Positions 1 through 37,305 of a stretch of DNA of 64,000 nt are shown here, in pieces (the stretch's first letter is position 1; each line of letters starts with the position of its first letter). The notes below the pieces were generated by a model, which saw only the letters and a list, made by a program, of their open reading frames with translations, did no database searches and was not told where the DNA came from. This stretch comes from Tetraselmis striata (lineage: Eukaryota > Chlorophyta > Chlorodendrophyceae > Chlorodendrales > Chlorodendraceae), in NCBI GenBank assembly GCA_006384855.1, contig VCJN01000420.1:1-64000 (forward strand), written 5' to 3'. The position numbers and the translations under genes were made by a program.

Positions 1-185
1 CTAACCGAACTCGCTAGATCTGGCCGCATCACGCGTCGAGCAGACAGGCGGCTACTGTACGCTGCCACTCGTCTGCCTACACCTCGAGTGGTCCTAGATT
101 ACACCGCTTCTACAGTGAACCCTAACCGAACTCGCTAGATCTGGCCGTATCACGCGTCGAGCAGGCAGAGCAGCTACTGTACGCC
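1..185. repeat. Direct duplication of a ~65-bp sequence
   Basis: Positions 1-65 and about 119-183 are near-identical copies, both running from ctaaccgaactcgctagatc through cacgcgtcgagcag to ctactgtacgc, separated by about 53 bp. They lie in what would be the first intron of the minus-strand gene starting at 257. The array may continue left of the window. Nothing shows a function. Confidence 0.8.
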
Positions 186-196
186 GCGCAACTCAC

Positions 197-257
197 CTGG
201 GGTGGCGTCGTCCTTGTCTTCCTTGTCCTTGGCAGGCTCGTTCTTCTTCGGCGCCAT
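197..257 (-). CDS. First coding exon of an unknown minus-strand gene, cut by the window edge
   Basis: On the minus strand an ATG at 257 opens a 61-nt exon encoding about 20 residues rich in Lys, Asp and Glu (starts MAPKKNEPAKDKED). It runs directly into a consensus splice donor, GTGAGT, at 196-191, leaving one base of the next codon. The following exon would lie left of the window. The lysine/acidic start resembles the tails of many nuclear basic proteins, but no family can be named from 20 residues. The long reading frame around it (174-452) reads through the donor and is not evidence for a different product. Confidence 0.45.
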
Positions 258-800
258 TCTGGCGGTAGGTAGGTTGACGCGGTAGATGAGCGGGTTTCTT
301 GGTGGGAAGCGGTGAGGGAGAGGTGGAAATGACGTGGTTTCTGTCTGCCGCCGCTCTGACCCCTGCTGGACCAACGGCGCGCGTGCGCACACTATAGTGT
401 ACCTCGTCGTCGTCATCAGGTTCATGTATTTTGCACCGCGACGAATATACAAGGCTAACTACTGCGACTATATATTACTATTACTGGAAGATAAAATATT
501 CCCTACTCGAGAGTCATAACGGTACGAGAGTACAGTGGCGTGGCAATAATATTCCTTCATGGGATGATATATTCCTTGGATTGGATTCGGGTTGTACTTA
601 CTAGTATAGAACTATTTCCGACATACGAAAGAAACACGAAATAATACGGTATTTGAGTCCTCAATTATTTTGACCCGTAGCTGGATATTATGCCCCCCGG
701 TCAACGGCCCGTCCGAGAACGGTCATCGGCCGTCACTCTTCCTCACCACAGATCACAGTCCTTCACCCCCCCCCCCCCCCCCCCACTCGCCCCGCGCTGC
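258..800. other. Upstream spacer of the DUF7869-type gene
   Basis: No supported gene. The stretch is AT-richer between 420 and 660 and ends in a C run (about 767-784) just before the chosen ATG at 801. An earlier in-frame ATG at 690 would read the C run as polyproline, so I prefer 801. It should contain the promoters of the two divergent genes, but no clear TATA-type element was identified. Confidence 0.4.
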
Positions 801-3800
801 ATGGCGGCGGTCGAAAGCATGGCCTCTTCTCCAGGATCCGGCGCGTCGGACACTACACTTACATTACCGACGTGTTCGTGCCGCAGCGGGTACTCGTGTG
901 ATTGCGACGCGCGTGCGAGTGATCGTAAGGAGCCTGAGAAAAGGAAGTACACGTGGGGCAAGGGCTCCGATGAGGTCGCCGAAAGCGATAATGGCAAGGT
1001 CTCGTCTCTGATCAGCAAGCGCACCTCTCGCGATTGTATCCGCCTCATGCTCGCCAAGGAGGCTAGCGAGCAGTCGCCATGCTGTTCGCGCAAGTGCGTG
1101 CACAAGCTATACACACAGTGCGGAGAGGCCCTCGTTGATGCCGTGTTGGACCGTGCGTTGACCGTATACTCTGGCAATCAGAACCGCTCCTTTGACCGGC
1201 TCGCTCAGGTTCTCAGGGGTGGCTACGAGTCGGCATCCGACAAGTTCGATTACATGTTCGATCACGGTGGCTACTTGCGATCTTTCGATCATCGCGGCCC
1301 CATCTACACGTGTGGGCGTGCGTGGGAGGTCTTGCATCAGGTCTCGAAACACAGACGTCTCGTGATCCAGCGGTCGGTGGTGGATAACGAACCCACGTAC
1401 ATCAGGCAGCGCAAGCAATACGAGAGCAGACAAACCGGACCGAGGGAGCATGTGCGCATGTTTCTCGAGCACTTCTTCTCGGATGACCTCGGTCACGTCG
1501 AGATCATGCCTTTTCATGACGGAAACAACGAGACCTTCAAGAAGCACCTACCTCCCTGGATGACCAAGATTTGCGTCTACTACTACTACAAGTCGTGGGC
1601 CGAGGACGACAACGCCATTCTCCGTGGTGAGGCCCATTTTGTCCCACTGATGACATACCGTTTCGTCCCGCTGACGACACACCGTTTCGTCCCGCTGATG
1701 ACAAACCGTTTCGTCCCACTGAGGACAAACCGTTTTGTCCCGCTGATGACATACCGTTTTGTCCCACTGATGACAGACCGTTTCGTCCCGCTAATTACAT
1801 ACCGTTTTTGTCCCACTGATGACAAACCGTTTCGTCCCACTGATGACAGACCGTTTCGTCCCGCTGATGACAAACCGTTTCGTCCCACTGATGACAGACC
1901 GTTTCGTCCCGCTGATGACAAACCGTTTCGTCCCGCTGATGACAAATCGTTTTGTCCCACTGATGACAAACCGTTTCGTCCCACTGATGACATGCCGTTT
2001 TGTCCCACTGATGACAAACCGTTTCGTCCCGCTATCGCTAGAACGTTTAGTCCCACCGACGCCGGACCGATTTCGTCCCACTGATGACAGAACGTTTCGC
2101 ACCGCTCATGGCATACCGTTTCGTCCCACCGACCACAAAAGTATTTGTCCCACATAATTAGCCGATATCGTCCCACTGCAGAGAGAACGTCTTGTCCCAC
2201 TGTTGAGAGACGGTTTTGTCCCACTACTGACATACCGTTTCGTCACACTGATGACAGATTGTTTCGCCATGCTGATTACAGAATTATTCACCCACTACCG
2301 ATATAATTATTTCGACCCACTTTAGACCGAACTTTTCTGTCTCGCAGTATGAGACCTTATTTGTATACCGACCTATCATGCCCCTGCCCCTTTGTAGATT
2401 TGGCTACCGAGAGCGAAGTGAAGCTCGCATCGTTCGACACTTTCCGCCGGACTTGGAAGGAAGACTTCCCGGATGTCACCACGCCGAAGGTGAAGCGATT
2501 CAGCCACTGTCCCATATGCGCGGCGGGCAAAGCACTCAGAGACCAAGCTCGCGAGATTTGCACAAAGGACATGACGCCAGAGGAACGTCAAGTGCACCGT
2601 CAACATCAGCAGCTGGTGAGGCGTCAGGTCAGAGCTGAGCAGAAGGTACACCTCGAGAGAGTGCGCCAGGAACGAAGGGATCTGAACAACGCCGTCTTCC
2701 AGTCGCGCCTTGGCCATTGAAACTTCTTCTTCTTCGAAATTGATAGCATGGACTCCGCGAAGACCCTGCTGCCTCACTGGGTTCGCATCCCCAAGACTGT
2801 GAAGCCCGACATGCTCCTCAAGTACCACCTCACCTGTGTGAAGTACGACGGATACCGCCCGGACGACATCTACTACTACACCAACACCATCCCCCACGAC
2901 TCGTCCACGACGTGCACTCTGATATGGATCACGATCATGAAGGTGAGCTCGTTAGCCTCCCGATAGGTTCGCCGTGGTTGTCCGGTAGCCATGGACTGAT
3001 GAAATCTTGTCTGCGATGCAGGAAATTCAACACCGTGGTAGAAAGATTCCGTACATCAGAATCCAGATGGACAACACCGTCAGGGAGAACAAGAATAGGA
3101 ACGTGGCGGCCCTCTGCAATTGGCTTGTGTCTATCGGCATCTGCGACGTCATTCATTTGGTCTTCTTGCCTGTCGGGCACACTCACGAACGGGTTGACCA
3201 GATCTTCAGCCGCATCAGTCTTGCGCTATCTCGCAGCTCCGCCTACACAATCGAGGCTTTTCTTGACTTGGTGGCGAAGGCATTCTCGCCCACTCCGGAG
3301 ATTGCTGAGCTCTCATTCTCCCTCGACTTCTCTGAGTGGTTAAGGCCCCATTTCCAAGACCACATTCAGGACATCAGTAAGCCGCACAAATTCGAGTTCA
3401 CCCGTGACGACGCCGCCGCGTCTGGCGGCTCGTTGCGCACCGCCTTGTGGTCCAACACACCGCTTTCTGAGCCCGTGCAGATCTTGAAGAGCGCGCCAAC
3501 TGGGACGCCCGAGATTCGTGCGGGCCGGCCCCTTTTGTACGCTCTCTGCGACAAAAAGAAGCCCGACGCGGTGAAGGTCCAGAGGTACTTGGATGATTTC
3601 AAGAAGGTCAGGTCGTACATCACGGACCTGCACTGTGAGATTCAGATGTGACATACGGGTGACGAAGCACTACCGTACCGGTACCACTATTATCCGTGAA
3701 AGCTGTTGCTGGTGGCGGCATGTCCATCCAGTTACGTGCGAGTACATCCGGCGTTATTGCCGGCGGGCGATAAATCCTTTTTGCAATCATTGAGGTAGTC

Positions 3801-6800
3801 GTACATGACGTGTGATGTGTTACATGGCACTGAAGTATAAGGTGCGAGGTTGTCCGTGTAGTACCGGGTAGTACCGGGTAGTACCGGGTGGTACCGGGTA
3901 GTACGCTATATATTTATTAAGCCGGTACCGGGTATCTAGTACGAACCCGAGCGCGATGACGAGTCGTCCTGTGGATAACTACGACTATTAGTACATGGGA
4001 GCGCAAATCGCAGCCGTACTATTCGGCTAGGGGCCTGCCCGCCGTCCGATCAAAGGTCATCAGACGGGCGGTTTGGCTGCCATGTTTTGCCAAAGAGTGC
4101 TCACGTTACATAAATATTTATAGGGGGAGGGCGGGGGCAGGCAGCGGTTTGCCGAAGAATGTTTGAATTACAATATTCGCGACAGCTGCCATCGGGGAAT
4201 GTGGCCCGGGGGGGGGGGGGGGGGGGGGGGGAGGCGGGCGGGCGTGGTCCCCCCGCCGCCCCCCCCCCCCCCCCCCCGCCCCCGCCGCCCGCCGCTCCCG
4301 CCGGGGGAGTGAGGGGAGGGGGGTAAGGGGGCGGGGGCTACTGCTTGTTCTTGTTCTTGCGTGCCCGGGGGACCCTCCGCTTCGACGATCTCGCTGCCTC
4401 CGCCTCCGCCTCCGCCTGCGCCTGCGCCTGCGCCTCCGACTCCGCCTGCGCCTCCGACTCCGCCTCCGACTCCGCGACCGTCAGTTTCTTACCTCGGCGC
4501 TTCTTCACTGGCCTCTTCCGCTTCTTGTCATCCGTCAGTGTCTTCACCACCCCGGGAGGCTGTGCCGTCGACGACGCCGCCATGAGCTTCCTTACCTTGG
4601 CGTCGGGACGCCCCCTGTGCCCAGACGCCCACAACCAGCCACAATCGTTTCGCCTTTAAGCGGCTGAGGATGCGGCCTCCTCGGCCACCACGAGTTGCGC
4701 CGCTGGCACTGTGGAAGCCTTGGCGTTGAGGTGGGCCTTACGGCGCTCCCGGACGAACCTGCGCGCGGCACAAGTTAGCCACGAGTGGGTGCGTGCTAAT
4801 GTGGAGGATGGAGTGTTTTGTTGCGCGCCCACCTTGTCACGCGTTTCCTCATGTCTTTCTCGTCCTCCTCGATGCCGGCGGCACGGACACGCGAGAAAAC
4901 AAGGCTCGCCGCCCACTTTTGCCCGGGGGGGCGAGGTCTGCCATGGCGCTGTGAGCGGTGAAGGGGGGGGGGGGGGGGGGCGGCCGAGGTGGAGAAACTA
5001 ACACCTAGTCGACGACCGCCTTCCGCAGCAGTCAACGACACATCGGAGGCGAGGAGCAGCGCGCCACTACTATTTATATGCACGTATTGTCAAGAGCTAG
5101 TCGGTGCGGCATTGTGTCGGTGTAATTTCGCAATGTTTATTGTTGAAGTAGCACGGCGTAATGGATACGGCGAGTGAATCCGGGATAATATGTGCGGTAG
5201 GGCGCGCGTATATGTGCGCGACGAATGTGCGCGCGCAGCGTTGTGCGGCGGTGTGCGGCGGTGTGCACCGATGTTAATATAGTGTGAATATTATATCGGC
5301 CGTAGACGATCGGGTCTGGCAGCACCGCCCGTGCTTGTAAATAAGCGACAATGGATCTAGTCTCCCGCTAGTCTGTGCACCGCCATTGCACTCCGCAAGC
5401 CTCGCCTCCATCCGCGTCGGAACCGGTAGTAAGTGTTGTTGTGTGCGCACATCGTGACAACATTACACGGTGGCAATTGCAATTATTAGCGGTGGATAAT
5501 GTGAAGGCGTTTTCGAAATCGACAGAGAATGAGGCGGTGCTGGCGGAGTGCATTGGCGGTGCATAGAATAGCGTGTTGCTGGGGTTTTGGCTGCATCGGA
5601 CGCCGTATTCCCACCCATCCGGCACGGAATGTCCGGTTTTCACACATTTGTGTGTTAATAAAGTGTGAATATTACGCGTCTTTTACGCCGGGTGGATGGG
5701 CATCCGGCGTCCGATGCACCCCAATTATTTGCAGCACGCTACTCTACGCACCCCCAACGCACTCCGCAAGCCTCGCCTCCATCCGCGTCGGAACCGGTAG
5801 TAAGTGTTGTTGTGTGCGCACATCGTGACAACATTACACGGTGGCAATTGCAATTATTAGCGGTGGATAATGTGAATGAAGGCGTTTTCGAAATCGACAG
5901 AGAATGAGGCGGTGCTGGCGGAGTGCATTGGCGGTGCATAGAATAGCGTGTTGCTGGGGTTTTGGCTGCATCGGACGCCGTATTCCCACCCATCCGGCAC
6001 GGAATGTCCGGTTTTCACACATTTGTGTGTTAATAAAGTGTGAATATTACGCGTCTTTTACGCCGGGTGGATGGGCATCCGGCGTCCGATGCACCCCAAT
6101 TATTTGCAGCACGCTACTCTACGCACCCCCAACGCACTCCGCAAGCCTCGCCTCCATCCGCGTCGGAACCGGTAGTAAGTGTTGTTGTGTGCGCACATCG
6201 TGACAACATTACACGGTGGCAATTGCAATTAGCGGTGGATAATGTGAAGGCGTTTTCGAAATCGACAGAGAATGAGGCGGTGCTGGCGGAGTGCATTGGC
6301 GGTGCATAGAATAGCGTGTTGCTGGGGTTTTGGCTGCATCGGACGCCGTATTCCCACCCATCCGGCACGGAATTTCCGGTTTTCACACATTTGCGTGTGA
6401 ATATATATAGTGTGAATATTACGTACGCGTCTTTTACGCTGGGTGGATGGGCATCCGGCGTCCGATGCACCCCGAATCTCACCAACACGCTACTCTACGC
6501 ACCCCCAACGCACTCCGCCAGCCCCGCCTCTTTCCGCGCAGGTCCTACGTTCCATTGTATGTATATACATACGTACATATACTGCTCCGAAACCAGCCCA
6601 AACTTAATGAGTGCACAAGTGTAAATGGGGGGGGGGGGGGGGGGGGGTGGGTGGGTGGGGGGATGTGGCGGCGGGGCATCCACTCACACATACCCCGGCG
6701 ATGCATGACAGATATTACATGCCGTGGCGGGTCGGCGGGCCGACCCGGCGGGGGGGGGGGGGGGGGGCGTCTATTCAACTACACGTGCGACAGTGTCGTT

Positions 6801-9800
6801 TCGTGGAGCAGTATATGTGCCCGGCCTCATTTATACCGCCCCCTACCTGCGCTGCATGGTCCACCCCTACGAATTACTTAGCACAAACCGCCATTACTTA
6901 CTAGGAACCTAGCACAGCCAGGCTTATATGCCCGCTTTGCCGATCAACTTCTACGCACTTTCCGTCCCTCAACCGCCGGACATGGGGGTTAAGCCGCCAG
7001 CCTCGGCAGTTGCTTAGCCAGACTTGGCATCCCGTACCGTGTCCATGGCTTCGCAGCTCTGCCGCCGGCACACGCCGAGTCCGGCGCTTGCTGCCGCGGG
7101 GTTGCGCACGCATGCACGCACGGTAATACGCCGCCGACGCCGCCACGCTTACTTCCACCACCTTCGCCAGCCGCAGCTTCGCACGCCGTTCCGCCGACAT
7201 ACGAAACGCACGAATCCCCCCCCCCCCCCCCCGTCCCCGCGTCATGTATAATATATTCGAGGCGACTATGCGGGGCGCAGCACACGCCGCGGCGTGGGTC
7301 GGCGGAGCGGCAGGCGGCGGGAGCCCTAATGGCCGGGCAGTATCCACACCCACACAGGCACCGCCGCTCACCTCCGACGCGGATGAACCGCCTCCCAAAG
7401 GAAACATGCCGGTTGGTGGTAAGCCCAGCAGGCGTGGGGTGCCGGCGCCGGTACTGGTGCGACGGAGCTGTCGCGTCAGGAACCGCACCGCATGTGGAGC
7501 AACACATGGCGGTGCCGGCCCCACCTATGTCTAGGGCCACCTCCTCACATCACCCCGCCACGACGGCGTCGGCCACCGCCGACGGCGCCGTTGCGGGGGG
7601 GGACGCCCTGCCAGGCGACGATGATGCGCCTGGTGCGCCGCGTCAGGAGGCGGAGGAGGCCGTGGTCGAGGCGACTGATGGGGCTGAGGGGGTTGTCGAG
7701 GCGAGCGAGGCTGCGCTCGCGCCACCCGCCCCGCAGCCACCTGCGGGACATGCCGACTTGCTCGTCGCCATGTTGACCGGAGCACTACGAGCAGTGGCGG
7801 GAGGCGGCCACATGCACTATCATATGCGTGTCCTGGCCGGACGCCCGTCATGCGTGTACTGCGGCCAACGGACGGACTGGGAGTGTTGCTGCGACGGCAC
7901 CCCGGCTTTGTGCGGCCCCAAGTACCCATGCATGGCGACCCATCAGCGGGCAGTCCCCTGCCCGACCACGGCCACGGTGAGGGCGGAGTTCCGCCATGTC
8001 AGGGACGCGTTCCACGACGCGACTCGCGCCGCCGTGTGTGAGGCTTCCGAGAAGGCACGCGCGGCTGGTAGGGTGCGCAGGGTGAGGCGGCGGACGGCCC
8101 AGGAGCTGAAGGAGAGCGAGACATGCCGTCAGTGAGGTCGGGCGCAATGTCATTGGGTGGGGCACACGGACGTGTAACACTTGCACTTTGCGCGTACTGC
8201 TGGGTTACATCCAAGCGGTGTCACACTATGCAACCGGAAAGGCTGCGTTGCTACTGCAAACGATGCGACGCCTCACTCTGTAGCAACCGCTGCCGAGCCT
8301 ATCCCACAGCCGCTGCCCCCCCCCCCCCCCCCCCGCGGGATCCCCGCCATCAGCAGCTTGTACTTGCACTTTGCGCGTACTGCTGGGTTACATCCAGGCG
8401 GCGTCACACCGGAAAGGCTGCGTTGCTACTGCAAACGATGCTACGCCTCACTCGGTAGCAACCGCTGCCCCGCCCATCCCACTCGCGTTGGCGCCGCGCT
8501 GCCCCGGCCGCCGCGCCTTGGCGCCGCGCTGCCCCGGCCGCCGCGCGTTGGCGCCGCGCTGCCCCGGCCGCCGCGCGTTGGCGCCGCGCTGCCCCGGCCG
8601 CCGCGCGTTGGCGCCGCGCTGCCCCGGCCGCCGCGCCTTGGCGCCGCGCTGCCCCGGCCGCCGCGCCTTGGCGCCGCGCTGCCCCGGCCGCCGCGCCTTG
8701 GCGCCGCGCTGCCCCGGCCGCCGCGCCTTGGCGCCGCGCTGCCCCGGCCGCCGCGCCTTGGCGCCGCGCTGCCCCGGCCGCCGCGCCTTGGCGCCGCGCT
8801 GCCCCGGCCGCCGCGCCTTGGCGCCGCGCTGGGTATCGAGTCCTCCCCTCCCTAGTGAGCGCGTCCACCTGCGCCTTGCGCTCGGGGCCGTCCTCCTCCG
8901 TCACCACATTCTGCAACCCCCACCGCGTGACGAACCACGTAGCTCCTTGCAGGCGCTTGTACATGTGCCCAAGCACCGCCAGTCGCGACACCGAACGCAC
9001 CACCGCTGGGGACGCGAGCTCCTTCTCGGGCATGATCGCCTTCACCCGGGCCTCCTCGAACAGCGGACCGGCGTTAAGAATGGAAAACGTTTCCATGTGG
9101 TGCAAGCAGTCCTCCATGACCCAGCCGGACTGCACCGTCACCTTGCCTGACCCTGCAGTCATGGAGGGGAATGCCGTCACGCCCACGCCCACGCCCACGC
9201 CCAGGGGGGGGAGGGGGGGGGGGTTTACCTTTCGATTCTTGGACACTGCAAACGAAGGGCGCAACCCGCGTTCAAAGTTGCTGGGTATCGGGACTAAAGC
9301 CTAGCGCCGGTCTTCCTGCTTCATAGCTCGGAATCCAACGTGGCCCTGCACGGTGACAAATTTCCTCCAGAAGTCCCTTCCCAAGCCAAAAAAAAACAGG
9401 TGGAACGGCGCGAGGGGGAAGAGGTTGACCATGCTGACATAGCCCATGACCACATGCACATGGCACACGCCATGGCAGCCAGTGTTCTGCTTGGCCTCCG
9501 CCAGCCGGGTTGTGTTGAACGCACGCCGGGCAAGGTGCGTGATTCACTGGACAAGTCATCGCCTTCATGGACGGTTACCAAGCGAGCATCCCCGTCCGCA
9601 TCCACAGGGGGGTGCTCCTGGGCAGCCGCCATAGCCTCCACAACCTGCCACGCCGACCAGACGGGTGCGTGTGATTCCATACAACCGCAGTTGAGCGGTG
9701 CCACCAGCACGCATGCCGGGCCCACTCACCTCTGAACGCAGAAGGTCCACAATGTCACCGTCCTCGAAAACAGCGCGCCACTGGGTCGCCCCGCCGTAGA

Positions 9801-11972
9801 TCTCCAACACCCACTCCGTAACGACGCTGGTTATCACGCCGTAGTGCCATACTCCCCGGAACTTCTTGGCGATGACCTTCATGTAGAAGTCGCCGGGATC
9901 GCCTTCCCGTATCACGCCCTCATCGCGGGTTCCACGCCCGCCGGCGGCCACGCAGGCGCGTCGATGTCCATACCGTCTTCGCCAACGGGGTCCTCCCCCA
10001 CGCCCATCACATCGTCCACCTTCGAGCCGCCGTCGTCCGAGACCGGCGCCGGCGGGCCGTTTCCGACGGCTGCAGCTACTCCTGCTGCCGCCCCTGTTGT
10101 TGTTGCTGCTGCTGCTGCCGCCCCTGCTGCTGCTGCTGCCGCCCCTGCTGCTGCTGCTTGTGATAAGGCGGCCTTGCGGCGCAACTTAGCCGCACGCTTC
10201 AACGAGTGGCTACAGTTCGGGAATTTTAGGAAGTGCCGCTCTCGCGCCATCTTATCACATGTGCCCGTCACGTTGCCCCGGCAGTGCTTGCATGAGTACA
10301 CGCCATCCTTCGACACACTCGCTATCCATCCCTTTGCCGGGATGCCTGCTGCCGCGCGCGGGGGGCTGGGGGGGGGGGGGGGGGGTTGAGAGTTGGGGTG
10401 GATGTAACCCACCACCGGCAGGCAACACAGATGCGAGTGCGCGGCTGTCCGCGCTTGATTCAGCGGTGAGCGGCGGTGACCGTGAGGCGACCCCGTACTT
10501 CATGCGCGTGCTGGGGCGTTACACAATCATCAGCAGTTAGGGCGGCTGCATTAAAACGCGCACCTACGAACACCACCTACCGCCTACCACCTACCGTACC
10601 ACCTACATCCGCCCACACCTCCGCCCGTCGTGCCGCACATCGCCGCACACCGCGGGGTCAGCGATGTGCGGCGATGTGCAGTGAGTGCGTACATCCGTCT
10701 GTACTTAGCCCGAGTGCTCCGCGTCGGCGGGCGACACGCGAGCCCGCGTGCGCATATCAATTTGATGAAATTATGGAAACGAGAAATTCATATAGTACTT
10801 TACAGGTCGCGCGCGATAGTCGTCGCTACTGGGTATGAAATCCACGTCCCTCGTCCGTCCCGTATCGTCCCCGTATGTCGTCGTTCGTCACCAGTAGGGC
10901 ACATTTAGGTCACATCTGAATCTCACAGTGCTGGCGGTCCAGTGGCACTTGTCCCCAGTCGAGCGCGAGAGCTGGAAGAATCTGCTCGACGACTTGGATG
11001 AGATGCAAACTGCTCCTTCGGCAGCTTTCTCCGGGTTCTGGCCGCAACGGAAAAAGGAAGTTGACGACTTCTTGCGCGAGCACGGGCAGACCGCGCCTGC
11101 TGAGGCACGTCACACGATGGCTACCAACGCAGACCTCAACAATGCCGAAGCCGCTCGCGTTGAAGCCGAGGTTCGTGCTCAAGTGCTTCAAGATGACAGC
11201 GCCTTCCGGGGAGTTCACGCCGGCGCCAAGGAGAGGCTTCATGACAACACATCGCCCAGCGATGCAAAGGGCTCGAACCTCGTTGTCATCGACGTCTCCG
11301 ATGTGAGTCCCATTGTTTGTCATTTTTGTCCTTTACGGGACAAAACAATTTGGTTCTTCTACCTTGCTTGTTATTTTGTCCCAACTGGGACAAAAATGGC
11401 GTGGCGTCTCGCTCGGGACTAACATAGCTCGCGGTCTTGGTCATCGTTAGGTGCATGAGGAAGACAAGTGTCCTGAAACTCTTGGTGATTGGGAGTCGAG
11501 ATTCGTCATCGGGCTTGTGAAGTCGCGCGAGACTACCGAAGACACGTTGACCGTGGCCGTATACGAGCCCTTCCATGCCGATGCAAAGGGCAAACCCCTC
11601 ATGCCCCTATGGTTGTACGCGCAGACAAAAGGAGGGAAGAAGCCAGTTGACACAAGCTGGGAGAAGTGCCTGACGCTTCCTTGGAAGCTTGTTGAAGCCG
11701 TCCCCCTATCGTACGCGAAGGCCATCCACGACGCGTCGGGAAGTCGAGAGGTGTTCAACGAGGACGGCACCATGGTCAGAAAGAAGTGGTACGGTAAAAG
11801 CGTCCAAGTCGTGAAGACATATGCGCAAACTGGGTGGCAAATCAGCCAGCCACGAAACAACTGCGTCCACGTCATGTCAACCACCCCAGCGCAACGCAAG
11901 CCCGGCGGAGTCGTCAAGTTTAATGCAGCCACGAAGAAGGACTTGCTTGAGTTGGGGATGCTCAACGAATAA
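801..11972 (+). CDS. DUF7869-type transposon-associated protein, five exons, one in-frame TGA
   Basis: CDS join(801..1626, 2398..2942, 3022..3634, 10929..11302, 11451..11972), about 959 codons. All junctions are GT-AG and all phases agree. Exon 3 carries the family signature: QMDNTVRENKN near residue 473 followed by FLPVGHTHERVDQ, typical of DUF7869 proteins, which are abundant in animal and protist genomes and suspected to be transposon-derived; their biochemistry is unknown to me. Exon 1 has a Cys-rich start, and exon 2 has a CPIC zinc-knuckle-like pair and the conserved IDSMDSAKT segment. An in-frame TGA at 2718-2720 (codon 383) interrupts exon 2; skipping it by a 45-nt intron would delete the conserved IDSMD segment, so it is probably a real nonsense mutation. 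Intron 3 is a complete CACTA-like element. Start at 801 is a choice; 690 is also possible. Likely a decaying or domesticated mobile gene. Confidence 0.82.
1627..2397 (+). other. Intron 1 of the DUF7869-type gene
   Basis: Donor GTGAGG at 1627 and acceptor after a pyrimidine tract ending TTTGTAG at 2397. Phase 1: the leftover G joins AT to give Asp. Almost the whole intron is a 24-bp minisatellite. Reading straight through the array also gives a long repetitive open frame, because 24 is a multiple of three, but that frame shifts at about 1806 and ends before exon 2. Confidence 0.75.
1637..2290. repeat. 24-bp minisatellite inside intron 1
   Basis: About 26 imperfect copies of a 24-bp unit whose core is cgtttcgtcccgctgatgac, most regular from 1640 to 2030 and increasingly diverged towards 2290. 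Variants differ by cac/cgc and ttt/ttc alternation. The core ttttgtccca recurs in hairpins in the last intron and in the 3' flank of the same gene. Confidence 0.9.
3630..3652 (+). repeat. Left terminal inverted repeat carrying the splice donor
   Basis: Reads CACTGTGAGATTCAG from 3631 and pairs with the reverse complement of 10909-10931. The donor GTGAG starts five bases inside the element. A following TGA makes the unspliced reading end after about ten further residues. Confidence 0.9.
3855..3910. repeat. Short gtagtaccgg tandem repeat
   Basis: About four copies of the 10-mer gtagtaccgg, one variant with gtggtaccgg. Several other scattered ggtaccgg motifs occur in this window. Confidence 0.7.
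4338..4916 (-). CDS. Possible C-terminal exons of an unrecognised nuclear-type protein inside the CACTA-like element
   Basis: Two adjacent minus-strand open stretches. 4656-4916 ends with a basic segment (ARRFVRERRKAHLNAK). 4338-4634 has a Lys/Arg cluster (KKRKRPVKKRRGKK-like), then alternating Glu-Ala/Gln-Ala residues and a basic end (RARKNKNKQ). A GTAAGG donor-like site lies at about 4593. The composition suggests a nuclear protein tail with a low-complexity linker, but no domain is recognisable, and the linker comes from a (gcctcc)n-type repeat on the plus strand. Exon structure was not resolved; it may belong with the antisense stretch 8850-10415. Confidence 0.3.
5380..6540. repeat. Three tandem ~375-bp palindromic (foldback) units
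   Basis: Copies start about 5385, 5756 and 6131; the first two are essentially identical over 375 bp and the third has small deletions. Each unit is an imperfect palindrome. In copy 1 the arm at about 5530-5630 (contains gctgcatcggacgccg) pairs with the arm at about 5686-5785 (contains cggcgtccgatgcacc), with a loop of about 55 bp carrying tgtgaatattacgcg. This looks like a foldback or MITE-type element duplicated in tandem inside the CACTA-like element. Open frames across it merely follow the repeat. Confidence 0.85.
6541..7505. other. Interior of the CACTA-like element without a recognised gene
   Basis: Contains three G or C homopolymer runs (about 6627-6647, 6751-6767, 7208-7222) and GC-rich open stretches on both strands that show no recognisable motif. 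Nothing else was identified. Confidence 0.4.
7506..8135 (+). CDS. ORF with a piggyBac-type C-terminal Cys cluster (fragment)
   Basis: Open frame ending TGA at 8135, shown from the internal ATG at 7506. An Ala/Pro/Glu-rich low-complexity first half is followed by HMHYHMRVLAGRPSCVYCGQ, then C-C-C...LC...C....H spacing and a basic tail (RVRRVRRRT). The order H...R..C..C......C..C...LC.....C...H is that of the small zinc-binding domain at the C-terminus of piggyBac (DDE_Tnp_1_7) transposases. No DDE core is visible upstream in this frame, so it is a fragment or a separate Cys-cluster protein. It lies inside the CACTA-like element, on the sense strand of the host gene. Confidence 0.4.
   Translation: MAVPAPPMSRATSSHHPATTASATADGAVAGGDALPGDDDAPGAPRQEAEEAVVEATDGAEGVVEASEAALAPPAPQPPAGHADLLVAMLTGALRAVAGGGHMHYHMRVLAGRPSCVYCGQRTDWECCCDGTPALCGPKYPCMATHQRAVPCPTTATVRAEFRHVRDAFHDATRAAVCEASEKARAAGRVRRVRRRTAQELKESETCRQ
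8165..8478 (+). pseudogene. Duplicated Cys-cluster exon (two copies)
   Basis: 8165-8300 and 8358-8475 are near-identical apart from a short deletion after gcgtcacac in the second. In the frame starting at 8123 the first copy reads LCAYCWVTSKRCHT, then YCKRCDASLCSNRC, another C..C...C..C...LC..C zinc cluster of the piggyBac C-terminal kind. The deletion shifts the second copy out of frame. A C run (8318-8335) separates them. Confidence 0.5.
8484..8830. repeat. 30-bp GC-rich minisatellite, ~11.6 copies
   Basis: Unit gcgttggcgccgcgctgccc plus cggccgccgc, nearly perfect; copies differ almost only at the base pair separating gcgttgg from gccttgg. Because 30 is a multiple of three, both strands have long artificial open frames (AAAGAARRQG-like on the minus strand). 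Confidence 0.95.
8850..10415 (-). CDS. Antisense candidate gene with zinc-finger-like and Tudor-like segments (structure unresolved)
   Basis: Minus-strand open stretches read in order. About 10354-9960 has a Cys pair (YSCKHCRGNV) followed by RERHFLKFPNCSH, a BED-like C..C....H....C layout, and then an Ala run. About 9895-9731 (FRGVWHYGVITSVV, then WRAVFEDGDIVDLL) matches the style of Tudor-like/agenet modules and ends at a GTGAGT donor. About 9670-9300 includes RAFNTTRLAEAKQNTGCHGV and a hydrophobic stretch. About 9165-8860 includes MYKRLQGATWFVTRWG. It lies wholly within the CACTA-like element, so it may be the element's own protein, but no transposase core is recognised and not every junction keeps phase. 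A zinc finger plus Tudor-like module is a known layout in transposon proteins of protists. Confidence 0.35.
10080..10160. repeat. Trinucleotide (GCT/GCC) tract
   Basis: Alternating runs of gctgctgct and gccgccc. On the minus strand it encodes the polyalanine part of the antisense candidate. Confidence 0.8.
10416..10908. other. Right subterminal part of the CACTA-like element
   Basis: No supported gene. Contains repeated cacctacc motifs (10560-10620) and cgtcccgtatcgtcc-type repeats near the right end, which could be subterminal transposase-binding repeats; that is inference. Confidence 0.35.
10909..10931 (-). repeat. Right terminal inverted repeat carrying the splice acceptor
   Basis: Reads ctgaatctcacag then TG on the plus strand; the AG at 10927-10928 is the acceptor for exon 4. 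On the minus strand it is identical to the left end for 23 bases, so the same terminal sequence works as donor in one orientation and acceptor in the other. Confidence 0.9.
11303..11450 (+). other. Last intron of the DUF7869-type gene with two hairpins
   Basis: Donor GTGAGTCC at 11303, acceptor CATCGTTAG at 11450, phase 0. It holds two inverted repeats built on the same word, ttttgtcc...gggacaaaa, at about 11323-11346 and 11373-11396. A related hairpin (cttgtcccattttggacaaa) sits 3' of the gene near 12048-12068. Confidence 0.75.
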
Positions 11973-12359
11973 ACTATCAGCAACGTCTTGTGGCTAGCTA
12001 GCCGCGGGATGTAATAATCATAATAAATATTGATTTCATTGCCTCATCTTGTCCCATTTTGGACAAAATGCTCCAAAACCAACATTGGATATGCGTCGCG
12101 GCTGCCCTTCATGCTGTTGAATGCTGCACTGCACCCAAGGTCTACAAACCCAAGCTACATCACCAGTGAGTCTTAAGTACTGATAGTAAACCCGGGAACT
12201 AGGGTATAAACAAACCCTACGGTGCAAAATGAATTCCACGGTGCAAAATAGGTTAAATTACTGTTATATATTCGGACTCATAATATATTACGCGCGAGGG
12301 AGGCACAAAAACAGAGACAAACAGCTTCGTGAGGACCTCCGAAGACAAAAAAGAAACAA

Positions 12360-35598: not shown

Positions 35599-37305
35599 TT
35601 GCGAGGCCACCTTTCGGTGACCGCCGCAAGACGCACCCTTGCAGCTCAACGGCGGGATGAGCGCCCTGTGTCAGGACCTGACCCCCCCACCTTACAGACT
35701 TCATTTAGACCTTCCTCGGTGCGGCGCTTCTTACAGCTACAGCCGAGTGCGGCTCAACCATCCGCACACCTGCACATGGCGGCTCAACCATCCGCCTTTC
35801 TTTTTACCCCATCTCTGCGTTCGTCGGTTGTTACACTACGTGTTACAACCGGTTCGCAACGACCAAGTTTCGCGCGTGTACGTTACGCACGGGACAGGCG
35901 CTACGAGCGCGAAGGGCGCGCGGGGCGGCCCTCTTACCTGAACCTAGCCCCGCAAACCCGTACTGGAGCTACTGCAAACCCGTCCAGCAACTACCGGCCA
36001 ACCGCCGGGAACCTAACTGCTGCTGCCGAGTACTTTGCGAACAGTAGCCGTGCCGGTGGCACTCTGTCAGTAAAACGACGCACTTACGTAATCGACGAGC
36101 CCGCAGCTATCGCTCCGTGGGCTGCGTCACTGCGATCCCGACTACAGGACGCGTTCGGCTCAGACGAGCTAGGCCAGCGGACGCTCGACCTGCTCTCCAG
36201 CTCCCTCAGCGCTCAGACCCTCAAGAGCTACGCCGGCAGGTTGGCTCAGTTCGCTGAGTTCTGCCACGACTCCGAGAACATCAGCCCGCTAGAGGCGACT
36301 ACTGCTACTGTTGTTCGGTACGTTGCCTGGATCGGGGAGCGAGGGCATATCGCAGCTAAGTCGCTGCAGCCCTATCTGTCTGCCATCAACACCTTCTTCG
36401 AGCTGCACAACCTCGTCCCGATCGCCAAGGACAGCCTACACCTCACTTCGGCAAGACGTGGGTTGATGTTACGTCAGCGTCGACTGGACGCTGCTCCTTT
36501 GCGTGTCCCTCTGCCTGCGGATGTAGCTTACCGCTTCGTCTCAAAGGCCGAGCTAATTGTGTCTGCTCCTTACCCAGAGTCCCACCTCGACTACCGAGCC
36601 CTCTTGGCCTCGGTTATCAACTTCATGTTCTTTGCCAGGGGCCTTACTGGCGTCTCCTGTCGAGTGCAAGATGTGCATGTCGACACCTACAACATCACCT
36701 TGCAGATCTACCGCGAGAAGGGTCGCGCCGGCCGGCGGGGACCTGACGACCTGCGCGTACTTCTCCTTCCAGTGTCCGAGCACCCTCGAGTGGCACGTCT
36801 CTTGCGCTACTTCATCGACAACGTCCAGTCTGTCCCCCTGGTTACTGTTGGCTTAACTACCTCAAACTTTTGGGCTGTCAATGTGGCTGAGCAGTCAAAA
36901 CCTTGGACTGCTGCTACGATGTCAGACTGGTTGTCTACAGCGGTCAACCTAGTCAACGCTGCCCCTCCTGCTGGCACTTCCTGGACTTCACACAGTCTAC
37001 GCAAGGGCGCAGCCTCTGCAGCAAACGCCATCGGAGCGCCACTGTCCCACATCCGCTACCAAGCGGTTGGGCCACTAACTCCGATGTCGTTCTGGACTAC
37101 ATCGACCCCAACGTTCTTCCTTCTCCTGGCGCGTGGTTCTTCTTTGGACACATCGCCCCCCTCCGCCACTTCCAAGTCCAACAGGACTCCGCAGCGGTGG
37201 CCTTCCCAGTGCCTCCTTCATGACTTGGCGCTACCCCTTCTCCGTCAATCCACCGCTCTCTACGTTCGCTCAAGACTGGCAAAACCAGACTCAACTTTGA
37301 AATGA
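35599..37305 (+). pseudogene. Tyrosine recombinase (YR), frameshifted before the catalytic Tyr
   Basis: Open from 35599 to 37305; the recognisable recombinase spans about 36100-37130. An SAM-like N-terminal part (SSSLSAQTLKSYAGRLAQFA) is followed by the box I region with its Arg (ARGLTGVSCRVQDV) and box II HSLRKGAASAANAIG with the H-x-x-R pair. At about 37062 the open frame leaves the family pattern, while the adjacent frame continues it (GWATNSDVVLDYIDPN), including the likely nucleophilic Tyr in LDYI. A 1-base deletion, or a frameshift used by the element, is needed to make the full enzyme. YRs of this type (DIRS/Ngaro/Crypton) integrate circular DNA by strand exchange. The first 500 bases of the frame are low-complexity and may not be translated. 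Confidence 0.75.
37277..37303 (+). repeat. Short repeat B1 of the second element
   Basis: tggcaaaaccagactcaact followed by ttgaaat; identical at 37581-37607. It overlaps the end of the recombinase frame and the first bases of A2. Confidence 0.8.

Follow-up and report, generated by a model that had tools for sequence, protein, structure and literature searches.

Transposons of the CACTA/EnSpm superfamily are defined by inverted termini that start with CACTA or CACTG, and such termini, together with a 3 bp target duplication, are features of En/Spm. Further marks of the superfamily are reiterated subterminal motifs and, in the autonomous member, a TNP2-type DDE transposase. Splice sites reportedly lie within the En/Spm (CACTA) termini themselves, as the title of Menssen et al. 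1990, on dSpm in maize A2, has it. The present work concerns a CACTA-like element of 7,300 bp found in a 64,000 nucleotide stretch of the genome of the green alga Tetraselmis striata (contig VCJN01000420.1, positions 1 to 64,000; this whole stretch is called the window). In a first-pass annotation the element was described as a complete transposon that interrupts a host gene and is spliced out as an intron. Our analysis indicates that it very probably represents a recent nested insertion into an abundant, transposon-like repeat carrying a DUF7869 gene, and that the reading frame is open on both sides of the insertion owing to the youth of the target. In comparison with En/Spm, the target here is a high-copy repeat, and splicing was judged from the sequence alone.

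Large CACTA insertions with host transcripts that can still be processed are known from soybean. Examples are two Tgm elements, TgmR* of 13 kb, which has a 3 bp duplication (PMC4219821), and Tgm-Express1 of 5.7 kb (PMC1947982). In contrast to the T. striata element, both lie within an existing intron of the host gene, and transcripts with Tgm-Express1 also include fragments of captured genes, spliced in as exons. Introners offer another comparison. According to PMC9860276, the median lengths of introner families range from 30 to 654 nt, and inverted repeats and target duplications occur in many, not all, families. The introners of Aureococcus bring both splice sites with them and lengthen the product by whole codons, as the T. 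striata element would, with a scar of 12 bp (4 from the element and 8 from the duplication) as opposed to 6 + 3 = 9 here; in that account they are introns of genes, whereas the family described here consists of ~8 kb elements located in repeats where tested. The introner elements of Amoebophrya (PMC7789003) are similar in that their intron ends bear inverted repeats of 8-20 nt and their boundaries direct repeats of 3-5 nt, but they are defined among non-canonical introns of genes. Provided that the splicing is real, but not otherwise, the size of the T. striata element and a fixed 9 nt scar in both orientations would set it apart. Neither the splicing mechanism nor a codon-adding scar would be new, since the En/Spm report (1990, by its title) and the Aureococcus introners precede them.

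The element and its target are arranged as follows.

3631..10930, + strand: CACTA-like element of 7,300 bp, running from A end to B end
3628..3630: left copy of the target-site duplication, CTG (single CTG in insertion-free copies)
3631..3652, + strand: 22 bp terminal inverted repeat on the left (A end); holds the donor-like CACT^GTGAGA
10909..10930, - strand: 22 bp terminal inverted repeat on the right (B end)
10931..10933: right copy of the target-site duplication, CTG
1..12269, + strand: high-copy repeat hit by the insertion; it ends on the right near 12230-12269 and extends leftward beyond the window
801..11972, + strand: gene predicted within the interrupted repeat, encoding DUF7869 and with a stop in exon 2; exon boundaries assigned by eye
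801-1626, 2398-2942, 3022-3634/10929-11302 and 11451-11972, + strand: exons of this gene, ends placed by eye

The termini of the element, CACTGTGAGATTCAGATGTGAC, are inverted, start with CACTG and are identical over 22 bp in the window copy; the word GGTGACGA is visible close to both ends. We call the element CACTA-like on the grounds of its termini and duplication length only. When the window was searched with an 18 base terminus pattern allowing up to 3 mismatches, the two ends of the element were the sole matches (0.04 expected).

Insertion of the whole element is proven by empty sites. Insertion-free counterparts, already thought of in the first-pass annotation, are abundant: an exact 24-mer spanning the uninterrupted junction occurs 141 times in the genome; the interrupted form has a single occurrence, the one in the window. 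The joined flanks of the window copy were found intact at 40 scored places (the best 40 of 358 candidates) with 99-100% identity over 600 bp, and in all four insertion-free copies that were fetched the breakpoints fall exactly at 3630/10931, with the CTG shared. For five insertions an exactly matching empty site was found, carrying the triplet once. They are the window copy and the family members at loci L012, L071, L016 and L067; the counterparts of L012 and L071 are located in the same window, near 37190 and 34610, respectively. The 141 exact targets without insertion rule out an ancient or host intron at the window site, and the single exact match of the interrupted form, which is the window itself, rules out that other target copies share the insertion. 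No excision footprint or retro-copied spliced scar (1-30 bases between exact flanks) was detected genome-wide at the window site, a result that is weak evidence because such a scar could arise only through a retro-copy or an excision. The window segment 34594-37305, which matches the L012 and L071 target sites, contains long frames, one of them with a phage-integrase (tyrosine recombinase) N-terminal domain.

The interrupted frame encodes DUF7869 (PF25273, E 1e-37), a name for which no mention was found in the literature searched. With 141 exact uninterrupted targets it belongs to a high-copy repeat rather than to an ordinary host gene. Its copy number and dispersal suggest that this repeat, too, is a mobile element; two fetched copies align over ~10 kb, the left end not being reached. 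Nine substitutions in 2,548 bp are private to the window copy when it is compared with four copies that lack the insertion. Seven of these are exonic: four are silent, two change amino acids and one creates an in-frame stop in exon 2, ~0.9 kb upstream of the insertion. The target copy is both young and already damaged upstream. Because of the stop in exon 2, a full-length product is not expected even with perfect splicing, and because the divergence from other copies is so low, an open frame in exon 3 is expected without selection.

Some further properties of the repeat were noted. It is ~10 kb or more in length (window 1-12269; L029-L032, L049-L051), contains additional unnamed frames on the opposite strand, and terminates on the right in ...TTAAATTACTGTT. 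The first intron of the DUF7869 gene (window 1637-2256) is an array of ~26 copies of a 24 bp unit, and in other copies of the repeat arrays of a similar kind are also seen farther upstream.

The features relevant to splicing are these.

3635..3636, + strand: candidate splice donor GT, by sequence context only
10907..10908, + strand: additional AG lying 20 nt before the claimed acceptor; splicing to it would shift the frame
10927..10928, + strand: candidate splice acceptor AG, CTCACAG^TG, by sequence context only

The GT at 3635-3636 and the AG at 10927-10928 are within the repeats, and the frame of exon 3, open on both sides, stays in phase when 3634 is joined to 10929, with three residues added, exactly as had been read from the sequence before. 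CTGTGAG read into the element constitutes the donor word, and its complement CTCACAG, read outward, the acceptor word. Both fall within the outermost nine bases of the inverted repeat that the family shares, and where the repeat is perfect, both are available in either orientation. The scar predicted for each insertion is 4 + 2 + 3 = 9 bases in any phase and either orientation, and would create a new stop in 16 of the 192 triplet-phase combinations (flanking bases held at C). The three introns of the repeat's own gene, placed by eye, likewise start with GTGAG. The extra AG at 10907-10908 has no counterpart in any of the 76 other ends read (A and B ends pooled, a few overlapping loci counted twice); further AGs are also present farther upstream of 10907 in the window copy. 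Judged by these words, splicing of the element is possible and may take place occasionally, and selection for splicing is not visible; the wording 'is spliced out' is an inference rather than an observation.

The exact 22-mer terminus occurs 1,868 times in the 224 Mb genome (994 forward and 874 reverse), which is far above chance; the reversed control sequence gave 0 matches. With the 22 bp inverted termini, the CTG duplication and the empty sites, these family ends bear out the description of positions 3631 to 10930 as a complete CACTA-like transposon. No family termini were found in viral contigs (0 matches). Eighteen of the first 20 candidate pairs fetched were true members of 6.1-8.9 kb, and the remaining two were chance pairs; this length range is partly our own choice, because pairs were selected with ends ~5.6-9 kb apart, and longer members are unrepresented. 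L014 and L018 (chance 9-mer pairs) and L052 (without a mate) were dropped. Two ends, A and B, can be distinguished in each copy: relative to the interrupted frame, the A end comes first in the window copy, the B end in L012 and L069/L070. Identity in the aligned parts of family copies is 92-97%, mostly 95-96%. Exact 22-mer termini in inverted order were also seen 13-14 kb apart at 88885-101914 and 117723-131576 of contig C142 (G000); longer members or nested insertions are possible explanations for these pairs.

The expectation that other copies would have 3 bp target duplications was largely confirmed. Identical triplets flank 17 of 28 insertions, as compared with 1.5% when ends of different loci were paired as a control. 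These 28 were not chosen by duplication match: the window copy and eight insertions picked by a CTG/CAG adjoining the terminus (eight of the ten pairs in one later batch) were left out.

It had also been predicted that other copies would sit in genes as phase-preserving introns. In our small sample this was not the case: no ordinary host exon was recognised among the 36 other insertions. Pfam covered the crossing frames (defined below) of 10 of the 37 insertions, window included, and one flank of L013; because so few insertions were covered, some host exons may have gone unnoticed, in particular any lacking a Pfam domain. The targets that were recognised are of other kinds. The L069/L070 insertion interrupts a reverse-transcriptase-like frame (RVT_1, E 2.1e-5, under Pfam's curated cut-off), and the uninterrupted L069 site was found with 89-90% identity among the best 40 of 247 candidates scored. 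The L012 insertion interrupts the end of a long frame bearing a phage-integrase N-terminal domain, and the insertions L028, L047 and L067 sit in other copies of their own family. When flank pairs were compared within ~0.36 Mb of sequence (maximum E 1e-8, not counting mates and overlapping loci), 19 of 37 matched other sequence; no match was found within the ~0.36 Mb for the 14 that remain besides these and L010, L022, L041 and L069. Genome-wide, all five sites tested (window, L010, L022, L041 and L069) are high-copy. At the L010 junction (G000 C9 45531/53769) the insertion point lies at the border between two different high-copy repeats, with matching flanking triplets, and the right flank of L013 encodes a domain resembling the phage-integrase N-terminal domain. 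Sub-threshold Pfam matches in crossing frames, Mus7 (0.037, L009) and CxC6 (0.038, L021), were set aside.

According to the explanation we favor, a family member without a recognised transposase of its own inserted by cut-and-paste transposition into one copy of the repeat, a partner element presumably supplying the transposase. The insertion itself and the CTG duplication have been demonstrated here. The frame would then be open on both sides through the youth of the target copy and not through removal from RNA; it is attributed to recency because of the empty sites and the upstream stop codon. Some observations weigh against this explanation. A matching 3 bp duplication is missing in 11 of the 28 insertions (loci L009-L048, L069-L072), and here the expectation mentioned above failed; the mismatch is unexplained, recombination between copies being a guess. 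The family yielded neither an autonomous element nor a transposase: Pfam searches with six long frames of the window element gave no match, and a family search for PF02992 (TNP2-type DDE transposase) found nothing, but is uninformative because its controls gave no match either. Furthermore, when the longest frame over each insertion, spliced as proposed, was determined on both strands and its shorter arm counted (crossing frame, n=37), the median for all 37 insertions was 53 residues, slightly above the 43 obtained at random points in longer flanks (one-sided p 0.12) and the 44 obtained by joining mismatched flanks (p 0.06). The longest of all crossing frames is that of the window copy. Without the window and the eight CTG/CAG-picked insertions (n=28) the median was 47.5 (p ~0.55), showing that the excess is at most slight and limited to the CTG/CAG-picked sites. 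The crossing frames of the latter (L053-L068) tend to be longer than the rest, perhaps due to base composition.

It appears unlikely that splicing takes the element out of transcripts as an intron via CACT^GTGAG and CTCACAG^TG, leaving a nine base scar and making insertion into genes tolerable. It is true that the context is in our judgement good for the donor and fair for the acceptor, that the joined frame is in phase, that GTGAG starts introns of the repeat's gene, that the scar is the same in any phase and orientation and rarely adds a stop, that the En/Spm termini (by title) and the Aureococcus introners provide precedents, and that the crossing-frame median is raised over all 37 insertions. 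On the other hand, the target is a broken copy of a repeat, the crossing-frame difference is gone in the set of 28, the extra AG 20 nt before the acceptor in the window copy would shift the frame, and there is no scar at the window site anywhere in the genome. Taking these together, of the original proposal the transposon stands, whereas its removal as an intron is left unsupported by the repeat target, the upstream stop and the missing scar.

It is quite improbable that the ~8 kb family, with ~900 copies' worth of exact ends, represents a full-size introner with a self-complementary splice word (CTGTGAG/CTCACAG) and an in-frame 9 nt scar. The comparison with introners holds for the inverted repeats and target duplications, but not for genic introns, which were not seen in the sample. 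We consider it very improbable that the whole family was selected for splice-competent ends, as an introner of CACTA size. Although both splice words are in the nine most terminal bases of the inverted repeat, the same bases through which the copies were found, such bases are expected to serve the transposase too; moreover, the tested insertions are in repeats, some in the family's own copies. As the genome is repeat-rich and assembled in 2,903 contigs, an assembly chimera joining two unrelated pieces was also considered, but the complete element ends, the matching CTG duplication, the exact empty sites and the same anatomy at other loci make the chance of it minute.

As found, the element is an ordinary nested transposon. 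It is a useful caution that a frame staying open on both sides of an insertion should not be taken as evidence of splicing where the insertion has landed in a young repeat with many copies. Were such elements efficiently spliced in real genes, introner-like behaviour would be stretched from sub-kilobase to 8 kb elements, and one terminal word would act as donor and acceptor in both orientations. A full-size introner, if real, would hide several kilobases of cargo in genes, those of other transposons included.

The interior of the window copy contains two tandem arrays.

5366..6538, + strand: tandem array of 375 bp units
8484..8831, + strand: tandem array of GC-rich 30 bp units

A BED-finger-like pattern was noticed by eye only on the minus strand of the element, and long runs of G or C are numerous within it (window 4210-4300, 6627-6662 and elsewhere).
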